Below are positions 50,791-56,316 of a stretch of DNA of 64,000 bases, in pieces. This stretch comes from Aporhodopirellula rubra (GTDB lineage: Bacteria; Planctomycetota; Planctomycetia; Pirellulales; Pirellulaceae). The stretch is from the NCBI RefSeq assembly GCF_014192335.1, contig NZ_JACHXU010000004.1:1-64000 (forward strand). Direction: 5' to 3'. The position numbers were made by a program, and so were the translations under genes. The notes under the pieces were generated by a model that was not told where the DNA came from, made no database searches, and was given only the letters and a program-made list of their open reading frames with translations. Each line of letters starts with the position of its first letter. Position 1 is the first letter of the stretch.

Positions 50791-51199
50791 TGTTGCCTAG
50801 ATGCGTGTGAGTTTTTGGGGTGCGTTGGGGTTGGGACGCCGAATCGGATCAAAGACCACCGGGAACTTCAGTGGTGCATACGATTGTGGGCGCGTCAAGC
50901 GAATTGGGGTTCAAAAACATTCAGATTCCTCGAGCGGCCTTGTCGATCCGTAGCGATCGAGCAATGCGTTGCGAATCCTACAGTCTGCAGGGTCTTGAGC
51001 CATTCCGATTAGATTTCGCAAACTTGATGCTGCCGAAACACTCATGCCGTCCGATACCTACTTGTGCAACGGTATCTTGCTTTCAATTTACCGAGAACGC
51101 AAATCACACAGCGTCGTCGTTGACCCTCCCAATCGAAACGATAACCGTCGTGTGGCGATCGAAACCTTCCTCTCAAAAAATTCCACGGAGACCTGTACG
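50791..51199. other. Intergenic region upstream of the Cys-repeat gene
   Basis: 409 bp between divergent genes. Open frames here lack start signals and domain features. It must contain both promoters, and perhaps a long leader for the Cys-repeat gene, but no specific motif is supported. Confidence 0.5.
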
Positions 51200-51763
51200 A
51201 TGCGTCGTATTCTTGTACCAGCTGTTTTGGCCGTTGCCCTGCTTGCCGGAAACGCCTCCAGCGCCAGCGCCTTTGGCCACCTGAAATCCCTGTTCGGCGG
51301 TTGCGGATCCGCATGTGACACCGCTTGTTGCGAACCAGTTTGTGAGCCCGTTTGTGGCTGTGAGCCTGTTTGCGGTTGCGAGCCTGTTTGCTGCGAACCA
51401 GTTTGCGGAGCAGAGCCTTGCTGTGCACCAAAGATGGGCTTGCTCCAACGCCTCTTCCACAAGAAGAGCTGCTGCGACACCGGTTGCTGCGAGCCAGTTT
51501 GCGAGCCAGTTTGTGGCTGTGAGCCAATTTGCGAACCAGTTTGCGGTTGCGAGCCAATCTGCGAACCAGTTTGTGGTTGCGAGCCAGCTTGCTGCGACTC
51601 GGCACCTTGCCGCCCATTCGGTGGATTCTTCGCTCGCATGTTCAGCAAGAAGAGCGCCTGCGACGCCGGCTGCTGCGAAATCGTTGAGCCAGCTTGCGGT
51701 TGCGAACCAACCTGCGGTTGCGAGCCAGTTTGCGGTTGCGAAGCACCTTGCGGATGCCACTGA
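51200..51763 (+). CDS. Exported protein with CEPVCGC repeats
   Basis: 187 residues from the ATG at 51200, with GGAG at 51187-51190; this start gives the signal peptide MRRILVPAVLAVALLAG (cleavage near SASA-FG). The mature part has 41 Cys, about a quarter of its residues, in three blocks of CEPVCGCEP(V/I)CEPVC-type repeats separated by two similar spacers (LLQRLFHKKSCCDTGCC and FFARMFSKKSACDAGCC). The regular spacing suggests a disulfide-linked rod or metal-loaded wall protein. It has the same leader style as the Cys-rich protein at 5.1 kb. Function unknown. Confidence 0.8.
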   Translation: MRRILVPAVLAVALLAGNASSASAFGHLKSLFGGCGSACDTACCEPVCEPVCGCEPVCGCEPVCCEPVCGAEPCCAPKMGLLQRLFHKKSCCDTGCCEPVCEPVCGCEPICEPVCGCEPICEPVCGCEPACCDSAPCRPFGGFFARMFSKKSACDAGCCEIVEPACGCEPTCGCEPVCGCEAPCGCH

Positions 51764-53801: not shown

Positions 53802-53973
53802 CGTTGGAAACAAGACGTTGCCCGCAAAGCAAGAAAACATCTAACAAGAACATGTCCCCGGCACCGACAGTGGTGCTCAACCATCGGCAAGCCAAAAAAA
53901 CCGAGGAATCAATCGAAAAAAAGCAAATTCAGCGCGCCGGCATCTGACTTCGATACCCTAGTAGTTAGATACC

Positions 53974-56316
53974 ATGAAAACGAACGCCCCTCACCCGCCG
54001 ACCGCGCCGCCGCGTCCTCTGCCGCCCCCATCACCAGAACCTCCGCCGATCGTTGATTCGACCGACACAATGTTCTCCGGATTGAGCGACCGTGATCTCC
54101 TCATCGGATGGCGGGACGATCAATGCCGTGCGGCGTTAGACGAACTTGTTCGCAGGTACCGCGTGTTGGTACTGAGCGTTTGCCGTCGTCATTGCCTCAG
54201 CGAGCAGGACGCCGATGATGCGTTTCAAATCACTTGGGTCTGCTTGGCTCAATCGGCAAATCGAATTCGCAACCCTGATCGCCTCGCCGGTTGGCTCCAT
54301 CGGGTCGCGACTCGCGCCAGTCGTGCGGTAATGCGAAAACGACGTGGGGCCGGCACCGCAAACATGCGTCGGTCCAATCTGGGTCACAACGAGATGAATG
54401 AGATCCCCGGCGAGCACGACGAAGCGTTGACGCAATTGACACGACGCCACGAGGCCGCCGTGCTCGACGAAGAGATCGCCGAATTGCCGGAACACTACCG
54501 CACAGCAATCGTCATGCATCTCATCGATGGGCAAAGCTACCAGGCAATTGCCCAACGAATTGAATCGAGCGTGGGAGCAGTCCGAGGCCACGTCCAACGA
54601 GGCAAACAAGTTTTAGCCCGTCGGCTGAGACACCGCGGCATCGTTCCGGTGATGGCCTTCGCCGCAACTCAAACTCTCCGTGTCTCGGACGCGATCGCTG
54701 CCGACGCCGCCCGCCGTACCCTTCCCTCTGAACTCAACCTGTCCGACGCGTCCTCGATAACCAACGCAACAGCGGGCCAAGAACCTCTCCACATTCCTTC
54801 TCTTCTCTCTTCAGGAACTCCAATGATTCGCATCGCTTCATGGGCAACCGCCGGATGCCTTACCTCGGCTGCGCTGGTAGGCATCTGGCTGACTCAAGTT
54901 CCCGCTTTTGGGGAGACCGACGGCAAGCCACTGACCGTTCGCATTTCGAAAATCCCAAACGGCGACACCGATGCGGCGACTCTCGTGGTCGGTCAAGCTG
55001 CATCGTTCGCCACAACGCCGCCACCGACAGACGCTCCATCGAATCCCGAACGGCAACCCTCCCCTGCACCGGAGCATCGCACCGACGTTGCCCACACCGT
55101 GGCCGAAAAAATGGATGACGTGGTCAGCATCGATCTGACCTGTTCGCTCAACGATCTCGATGAATCCTTGTCAGGCGCACTCGGAATCGCTGTCCTACTC
55201 GACCGACGTGCGATCGGCCTCACCGACCTTTTGGATACAGGCACTGCTCTCAACATCTCGACTGACAAACAACCGCTACGAACCATCCTTCGTAAAACAC
55301 TCGAACCACTGGGCCTGCGCGCCGAGGTTCAAGACGAAGGACTCGTCATCACCGCCGATTTCGCAGAACTCACCCGTCGTGGAATCTCGACTGACAAATG
55401 GATTGGTTTATCCGATGAACTCGTCGAACAAGTCGACGAAGTCCTGGCGACCAAAGTCGCCGTCGATTTTGTCGATACACCTCTAGTCGAAGCCGTTGCC
55501 CACTTGGCGAGTGAAACTGCATTCCCTATCCGGATCAACTTAAACGCGTTAGAAGAAGAGGGTCTTACCGATGACACCCCCGTGCAGTTTTATTCTGGGA
55601 TTTCACCGACCGTGACACCGGTTACCGCTTTCGATCCATCCAACGACCCATTTGGATCAACGAGCACACAACCATCGAAAAAATCAAAACCGCAGCCATC
55701 CACTGGAAAAACGCAAGCGATCGAGTCCAAACCGCCCGTCGAGGATGGCCGAAGCGCATCGGTTGAAGTCGTGCTCAACTCGATCCTCCGACCGCTCGAA
55801 TTGACGTACACCGTGCGTGACGAAGCCATCATCATCACGACTCTTGACGACGCACGAACCGAGCTCCGACCAAGAATCTATTTTCTCGAGGGCACCGGTT
55901 TACCGCGTGGTGACTACAACGTCGTCATCGAACTCATTCAGAGTTCATTCGAGCCGGATCAATGGGAAGCACTCGGTGGCTCGAGCACGATCATGCCGAT
56001 CGGCAATGGCTCGCAGGGCCGTCCTGCGTTGTTGATCAGCACGACGACATCCACTCACGACCAAATTGAATCCTTCATGGGATCGCTCCGAGAAACGCAC
56101 TTCGGCCCTGATCCGATCGCAACCCAACCGTCTTCTCCCGGAGGCGGCCCATTTGGTGGAATGGGTGGCGGAATGGGTGGCGGAATGGGTGGCGGAATGG
56201 GTGGCGGAATGGGCGGTGGAATGGGTGGCGGAATGGGTGGCGGAATGGGTGGCGGAATGGGTGGCGGAATGGGCGGCGGAATGGGCGGCGGAATGGGCGG
56301 CGGTGGAATGTTCTGA
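53974..56316 (+). CDS. ECF sigma factor fused to a membrane anchor and STN-like domains
   Basis: 780 residues. A Pro-rich start is followed by sigma-70 region 2 (about 45-125; DADDAFQITWVCLA, LAGWLHRVATRAS) and region 4 (about 170-225; ELPEHYRTAIVMHLIDGQSYQAIAQRI). A single membrane helix at about 286-303 then leads to a presumed extracytoplasmic part with two STN/secretin-N-like domains (about 370-455 and 470-620), a third short domain (IYFLEGTGLPRGDYN..VVIELIQSS), and twelve MGGG units. Met284 (ATG at 54823) has AGGA six bases upstream, so the anchored half may also be made alone. The architecture suggests a one-piece membrane-tethered sigma factor. Confidence 0.85.
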   Translation: MKTNAPHPPTAPPRPLPPPSPEPPPIVDSTDTMFSGLSDRDLLIGWRDDQCRAALDELVRRYRVLVLSVCRRHCLSEQDADDAFQITWVCLAQSANRIRNPDRLAGWLHRVATRASRAVMRKRRGAGTANMRRSNLGHNEMNEIPGEHDEALTQLTRRHEAAVLDEEIAELPEHYRTAIVMHLIDGQSYQAIAQRIESSVGAVRGHVQRGKQVLARRLRHRGIVPVMAFAATQTLRVSDAIAADAARRTLPSELNLSDASSITNATAGQEPLHIPSLLSSGTPMIRIASWATAGCLTSAALVGIWLTQVPAFGETDGKPLTVRISKIPNGDTDAATLVVGQAASFATTPPPTDAPSNPERQPSPAPEHRTDVAHTVAEKMDDVVSIDLTCSLNDLDESLSGALGIAVLLDRRAIGLTDLLDTGTALNISTDKQPLRTILRKTLEPLGLRAEVQDEGLVITADFAELTRRGISTDKWIGLSDELVEQVDEVLATKVAVDFVDTPLVEAVAHLASETAFPIRINLNALEEEGLTDDTPVQFYSGISPTVTPVTAFDPSNDPFGSTSTQPSKKSKPQPSTGKTQAIESKPPVEDGRSASVEVVLNSILRPLELTYTVRDEAIIITTLDDARTELRPRIYFLEGTGLPRGDYNVVIELIQSSFEPDQWEALGGSSTIMPIGNGSQGRPALLISTTTSTHDQIESFMGSLRETHFGPDPIATQPSSPGGGPFGGMGGGMGGGMGGGMGGGMGGGMGGGMGGGMGGGMGGGMGGGMGGGMGGGGMF
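56161..56304 (+). repeat. Twelve tandem 12-bp units coding for MGGG
   Basis: ATGGGTGGCGGA is repeated twelve times without gaps, ten units filling two 60-base rows exactly; later units use GGC in place of GGT. Only third-position changes are seen apart from one GGT added in the last unit. It encodes the Gly/Met tail of the sigma-fusion protein and is prone to length change by slippage. Confidence 0.95.

Follow-up and report, generated by a model that had tools for sequence, protein, structure and literature searches.

At positions 53974–56316 of the window (the whole 64,000-nucleotide stretch of Aporhodopirellula rubra contig NZ_JACHXU010000004.1 that was analysed), a single open frame on the forward strand runs from an ATG at 53974 to a TGA ending at 56316 and spans 780 codons (Table 1). 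The encoded protein is an ECF sigma factor (group 4 sigma-70): it contains only sigma regions 2 and 4, directly linked, and scores 73.9 bits against the TIGR02937 sigma70-ECF model, above that model's cut-off. A linker of about 60–70 residues separates the sigma regions from Met284 and a membrane helix, beyond which the frame continues into an exported half (hereafter, the C-half). The helix has a borderline Kyte–Doolittle value of 1.41, compared with mostly 1.5–2.5 in other fusions. The first-pass annotation had read a sigma region 2/4 module, a helix and outer domains in one continuous frame, and the Pfam, TIGR02937 and hydropathy results agree with it. A second, weaker hydrophobic segment (54637–54693) follows sigma region 4 immediately and is also seen in several relatives (values of 1.4–1.7); if it spanned the membrane, the topology of the full-length protein would change. 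Elsewhere in the window, a Cys-rich repeat protein (CGCEPVCGCEP units) is encoded at 51044–51763, with long open frames on the opposite strand.

Table 1. Features of the sigma factor fusion gene and its upstream region, in window coordinates.
Feature	Coordinates	Strand	Basis
Conserved element resembling a promoter, TTCAGCGCGCC-N17-CCCTA; 13 nt separate it from the sigma ATG	53928..53960	+	Conservation upstream of fused genes
Long form: 780-aa ECF sigma factor plus exported half, putative membrane tether	53974..56316	+	Open frame; fused in 11/13 genus genomes
Sigma-70 region 2, residues 58–124	54145..54345	+	PF04542 (Sigma70_r2), E 1.6e-11, above Pfam cut-off
Sigma-70 region 4, residues 164–212	54463..54609	+	PF08281 (Sigma70_r4_2), E 2.4e-11, above Pfam cut-off
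Internal Shine–Dalgarno (SD) AGGA, 6 bases 5' of internal ATG	54813..54816	+	Sequence; core in 96/109 fused genes
Proposed short form, 497 aa, exported or membrane-anchored, from Met284	54823..56316	+	Conserved SD and ATG; product predicted
Membrane helix, about residues 287–306; N-terminal signal anchor of the proposed short form	54832..54891	+	Hydropathy; flanking charge pattern
STN-like repeat 1, about residues 375–464	55096..55365	+	STN matches in aligned C-halves; hhalign vs repeat 2; model
STN-like repeat 2, about residues 479–628, including a low-confidence insert of ~45 residues	55408..55857	+	hhalign vs repeat 1; model
Third, N1-like domain, about residues 629–715	55858..56118	+	Strand–helix order in model; secretin N0/N1 matches
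Gly/Met-rich tail, GGGM repeats	56140..56313	+	Sequence

The C-half of the 780-aa protein has no Pfam match of its own at E <= 1, and its domains were recognized through relatives and structure prediction. STN is matched by 17 of 24 aligned C-halves (E <= 0.1; best 1.1e-9) and FecR_C by two of 24. The two STN-like repeats align to each other (hhalign probability 99.3, E 1.2e-20), and the C-half profile gives a weak match to the PupA signalling domain (2a02, E 0.035). An AlphaFold model of 497 aa has a mean pLDDT of 69 and a pTM of 0.56; its domain blocks lie mostly at 76–96 and its first 80 residues below 50. In Foldseek searches, this model is most similar to secretin N0/N1 domains (best E 4.5e-3, probability 0.97; none at 0.001 or below), and the first 20 rows include signalling domains of TonB transducers (2o5p, 2a02) and a putative anti-sigma factor (4m0h). 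Residues ~629–715 are unlike both STN-like repeats in sequence when compared by hhalign, and the label 'N1-like' is our own reading of the model for this segment. The two STN-like domains proposed by the first-pass annotation are thus upheld by the matches in relatives, the repeat-to-repeat alignment and the model, and a candidate third domain is added to them. Scans of the whole 780-aa protein against Pfam found neither a FecR nor a zinc-finger anti-sigma domain (E <= 1), and no WD40 or propeller match. By type, the part beyond the helix would be extracytoplasmic. Many relatives have a shorter Gly-rich tail, ending in GMF or GFF, in place of the GGGM repeats.

Among 13 genomes of the genus, 12 have the full C-half, and in 11 of these 12 it is fused to the sigma module (one of them, G703, was counted as fused by reading its protein, as the automatic pattern missed its sigma part). 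The remaining two are G115, with the C-half alone, and G141, with partial matches only. This comparison of fused and split relatives, together with 117 distinct helix-bearing fusions from the class Planctomycetia in the wider set described below, rules out an assembly error or frameshift, the outcome that the first-pass annotation had named as fatal to its reading. Among named relatives, Aporhodopirellula aestuarii comes closest (L038; 68 per cent over the alignment), and the 780-aa query matches 47 of 149 family genomes at E 1e-20, some via the C-half only.

The first-pass annotation also placed an AGGA six bases upstream of an ATG at codon 284, correctly in every detail, and guessed that the membrane-bound half may be translated separately from that codon. 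Conservation of both signals across relatives makes this guess much stronger, with the product itself a prediction. We collected 165 loci, most of them found with the 780-aa protein and an alignment of 26 relatives, which yielded 126 distinct sigma ORFs. A hydrophobic helix lies 20–160 residues past the sigma domain in 117 of these; the other nine are ordinary ECFs or ORFs cut by the end of the locus. An ATG lies near the start of the helix (codons –22 to +8 relative to it) in 109 of the 117 fusions, and 96 of those 109 have an SD core (AGGA, GGAG, GAGG or AAGG) at –20 to –5. When the same amino acids were recoded with each gene's own codon use (20,000 simulations), a core was expected in 56.7 (sd 3.8) of the 109 genes (z = 10.4), and the highest simulated total was 72. 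Gene by gene, the resampling is weak, with only four of 109 genes at the 5 per cent level or below; its strength lies in the sum. These counts come from related members, chosen by similarity to the 780-aa protein or to an alignment that contains the linker, which may favour Met-bearing genes.

Because the initial SD test took the best SD where a window held several Met codons, a blind repeat was run. In this repeat, 111 of the 117 fusions have an ATG 45–75 residues past the sigma domain (43 per cent expected from Met frequency), and the first such ATG has an SD core in 91 of the 111. After thinning at 50 per cent sigma identity, the core is present in 19 of 21 representatives, and it precedes only 17 per cent of the remaining in-frame ATGs of the fused genes (n = 1,284). 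Within the genus, GGA stands 6–9 bases before the internal ATG in all ten fusions whose ATG was printed. The ATG falls mostly 53–65 residues past the sigma domain, irrespective of the C-half that follows. Codon 284 is, by these comparisons, a strong candidate for an in-frame internal start, having an SD at ordinary start spacing that is conserved beyond amino-acid expectation.

The conserved signal is carried by nucleotides rather than by residues. The start of the core falls in each of the three codon phases (28, 30 and 38 cases), and the residues that bear it vary (EG, QG, KE, QE, RGE, SG), which is incompatible with a protein motif 'LLSSGxxM' as the sole cause. Glycine at codons –6 to –3 is encoded by GGA in 64 of 77 cases, as opposed to 20 per cent elsewhere in the same genes (P = 7.7e-32); KE is written AAG GAA or AAG GAG in 13 of 14 cases, and QE is written CAG GAG in eight of ten. 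Since the core occurs in three phases, GGA is favoured and the core exceeds the recoding expectation, these patterns argue that the start signal is selected at the nucleotide level, and they indicate present selection on DNA, not protein. The anti-SD reads CACCTCCTTT in the 16S genes of three genomes of the same family; these were used because no 16S match was found in the source genome (G000) or in G130, two nearly complete genus genomes (one of them a single contig), where the gene may be masked, missing or missed by the tool. Counted from the Met, the first 12 residues have a mean net charge of +1.07 (positive in 87 of 109), as against –0.06 for the 12 residues that precede it and –0.88 for the 20 residues past the helix, a distribution that in sequence terms is that of an N-terminal signal anchor.

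Genes that have the C-half without a sigma module retain the same signal. In G115, of the same genus, the sigma half is lost and gene order is the same (flanking genes were matched by eye); a 458-codon ORF is left, whose pre-helix ATG retains its SD (dG –5.7), and the promoter pattern discussed below was not found at this sigma-free locus. The C-half ORF of G087 retains FLSEGTRLM, which corresponds to the end of the linker in fused relatives, along with its SD and ATG, and four more C-half-only genes (L041–L044) have SD-like stretches (dG –5.8 to –7.3) before their likely starts. Searches beside the C-half-only genes yielded no convincing sigma remnants (tblastn matches no better than E 0.021). 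One of these genes, a C-half-only STN gene in G055 (L041; 4081–7477, minus strand), lies directly upstream of a fused sigma gene on the same strand, and the locus is thus a tandem of plain and sigma-tagged paralogues. Just 5' of the internal SD, the A. rubra gene has a pyrimidine-rich stretch at 54790–54812 (CTTCTCTTCTCTCTTC); genes for the C-half alone, among them those of G115 and G087, have similar stretches before their starts.

The signal could instead serve the long form only, if the SD-like stretch paused ribosomes for cotranslational insertion of the helix, the Met were incidental and the protein were a plain one-piece tethered sigma factor. That it almost always sits immediately upstream of the helix would suit such a role, but pausing needs no ATG at ordinary start spacing, and the signal is kept by relatives that consist of the C-half only. 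It is also missing from planctomycete Ser/Thr kinases with a membrane helix: an SD core precedes the helix in none of 28 (any ATG in eight of 28), which speaks against a general trait of membrane helices. These 28, drawn from 30 loci, have a helix past the kinase domain, identified at a cut-off of 1.6 as against 1.35 for the fusions. We therefore regard pausing as an unlikely explanation, albeit the best placed of the alternatives to an internal start.

The internal start has exceptions: eight of the 117 fusions are without an ATG at the expected place, and 13 of the 109 with an ATG are without the core. Ten exceptional fusions (all eight without the ATG, plus L128 and L138) were scanned for domains. 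L131, L138 and L139 are clear WD40 proteins and L106 has weak propeller matches; L083 has a peptidoglycan-binding domain, L137 has CarboxypepD_reg and HEAT repeats, and four are without any match. Outside the class, seven of 18 sigma ORFs have an SD–ATG pair with dG –7 or lower at the corresponding position; in the remaining 11 it is weak or absent. Two fusions have a GTG with a strong SD readable at the place of the internal ATG, L022 (G112:C8; dG –7.6) and L028 (G036; dG –6.4); these are suggestive and were excluded from the counts. The frame of L022 stops soon past the helix and is without an STN half.

The exported halves are diverse. STN is detected at E 0.01 in 38 of the 108 C-halves scanned, and at E 1e-3 the family profile recognizes its module in 72 of 109; of the other 37, 20 were scanned singly, giving 13 with matches at 1e-5 and seven without. 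In L124 (G512:C65), a complete serpin (PF00079, E 2.1e-122) follows the ECF sigma module and membrane helix in frame. Other C-halves comprise an HlyD adaptor (L146), Poly_export (L082, L153), peptidoglycan-binding domains (L087, L088), leucine-rich repeats (L115), thioredoxin-like domains (L130, L163) and beta-propeller repeats (L162). The internal SD core is present in all of these except the thioredoxin-like fusion L163. Many of these families act outside the cytoplasm, which fits both the single-helix topology and stand-alone use of a short form. Judged from these sequences, very different exported proteins can take the place of the outer half, and the start nearly always persists.

This variety bears on what a short form would do. 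Both forms might be made and the short one act mainly as a brake, competing for a ligand or partner, or holding the sigma factor in mixed complexes, with no envelope job. Phage endolysins offer a precedent in which a long and a C-terminal product of the same gene assemble with each other (PMC9430671, in excerpt), but complete serpin, HlyD adaptor and Poly_export C-halves, and genes that encode the C-half only, suggest that the exported half has a job of its own, and we consider a mere brake improbable. Slightly less probable still is that the internal start is a relic of a sigma gene and an exported-protein gene that lost the intervening stop, with the second start not yet decayed: very different C-halves behind the same sigma module would be expected from such events, but class-wide conservation despite changing amino acids and codon phase points to present selection, and the similar distance between sigma domain and ATG, regardless of which C-half follows, speaks for a single old junction.

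Upstream of the sigma ATG lies a conserved element with two boxes (Table 1). Defined as GCG[CT]G[CT], 14–24 bases, C[AC]CTA, it precedes 21 of the 109 fused genes (0.7 expected after shuffling), and in 18 of those 21 the spacing is exactly 18 bases after GCGCGC. Within the 240 bases that precede the sigma domain, 49 of 109 genes have the shorter word CACTA, compared with 22 for the reversed word. The two-box form and the location of the element are those of a putative ECF-type promoter. A strict pattern, TTNNGCGCGC-N18-CNCTA, gives nine matches in 12 genomes and its reversed control ten, so the case for a promoter rests on place and conservation and not on rarity. Five of the nine strict matches lie 11–15 bases before a fused gene and three are without a clear gene; in G138 the match precedes the start codon of a 390-aa ORF by 33 bases, and the N-terminus of that ORF is signal-like. 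The source genome has one strict match, before the gene at 53974, and its reversed control also gives one. At the fused gene itself, a strict match is absent in seven of the 12 genomes; G130 has a single match with one mismatch, upstream of its fused gene.

A wider regulon was considered and rejected: one-mismatch matches in the source genome (six) are fewer than in the reversed control (15), and we claim no further target. Two similar one-mismatch copies in genus genomes (G045:C3:959488 and G091:C3:307800) are a possible second target. From the place and conservation of the element, and not from counts, it is most likely that the sigma factor acts on its own promoter and may act on little besides. 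Because the element ends 13 bases before the ATG, the leader would be only a few bases long. In line with a near-leaderless first start, 47 of 108 genes have an SD core at one or other possible N-terminal start, as against 95 of 108 at the internal one.

Our preferred reading, which we hold to be likely, is that one gene gives two proteins and a feedback loop, the proteins being a tethered sigma factor and, by itself, the exported partner. Transcription would begin a few bases before the sigma ATG, from an ECF-type promoter that the gene's own sigma factor probably reads, and near-leaderless initiation at that ATG would give the long form, in which a single helix would tether the sigma factor to the membrane with the STN/STN/N1-like half outside. 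Initiation on that mRNA at the internal SD and ATG before the helix would produce the short form, in which the exported half stands alone and the helix serves as signal anchor. This form would act as the working envelope protein, and the long form would be the same protein with a sigma factor attached; with the outer part common to both, the long form could report the state or ligand of the short form. As the first-pass annotation suggested, the chain may replace a separate anti-sigma factor, and the sigma half may be held inactive in it. The sigma factor would be released by cutting or by a shape change, most likely by proteolysis, an idea borrowed from IutY (PMC8999054, in excerpt), and transcription of its own gene would rise.

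One-piece membrane-anchored ECF fusions are known, among them IutY and the groups ECF48, ECF52 and ECF53 (PMC8999054, in excerpt). In IutY of Pseudomonas putida (ECF243), a sigma factor is fused to a membrane anti-sigma factor, and, as here, a cytoplasmic ECF module, an anchor and an outer sensor form one chain with no separate anti-sigma factor, according to the same excerpt. The 780-aa protein also has an STN-type outer domain behind one membrane helix. However, the IutY type has a fused FecR-type anti-sigma domain between the sigma module and the helix, which the Pfam scan did not find in the 780-aa protein; a partner gene for a TonB-dependent transducer and release by Prc and RseP are further features of IutY. 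An internal start is proposed here, whereas a term search of the available text of the IutY paper (PMC5411451) found none; this is a comparison by text and not by gene sequence. The actinobacterial groups ECF48, ECF52 and ECF53 (e.g. SCO4117) likewise combine a sigma module, a membrane region and a long outer extension (PMC8999054; PMC5826349; both in excerpt), but the passages available describe a zinc-finger anti-sigma domain in them, together with parts that are proline-rich or bind carbohydrates; we found none of these here. Membership of the IutY or ECF52 type thus fails on the anti-sigma domain, though the 780-aa protein may work like them.

Other comparisons concern single parts of the architecture. 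ECF57 of Singulisphaera is, like the present protein, a planctomycete ECF with a long C-terminal extension (PMC8999054, in excerpt), but its extension is described there as WD40-like rather than STN, and the three clear WD40 fusions in our set are without the internal SD–ATG. Anti-sigma factors of the FecR/PupR type also place a helix before an STN-type outer part in a protein that controls a sigma factor (PMC7186176, in excerpt). In that source they are separate proteins, whereas here the sigma factor is in the chain, with two STN-like repeats and the N1-like domain, and we identified no juxta-membrane domain. Two-polypeptide phage endolysins offer the closest parallel for the expression strategy, in which a full-length and a C-terminal product share a stop codon and the latter arises from an in-frame internal start, as proposed here (PMC9430671, in excerpt); these are lytic enzymes and, unlike the 780-aa protein, have neither a regulator nor a membrane tether in that account. 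We found no report of internal starts in ECF genes in the literature searched, outside which lie the main planctomycete and ECF-classification papers, so that absence from print is not established. As far as these searches go, the class-wide internal start, the widely varying exported halves and the conserved own promoter would be new.

If both proteins are made, many planctomycete 'sigma factor' genes would also yield an exported protein that gene callers overlook, and the long and short forms together would make a compact self-regulating unit. Tentatively, we raise the possibility, which we rate well below the reading of the single gene, that this is a gene format of the Planctomycetia: a few sigma-tagged reporters would come from the first start and the bulk, plain copies, from the internal start, and the sigma factor would serve chiefly its own promoter. 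Each gene would thereby measure and adjust its own envelope protein, and the C-half could be swapped behind a cassette of sigma module, linker and start. Such a format would give a common logic to the large and mostly unstudied set of extended planctomycete ECFs.
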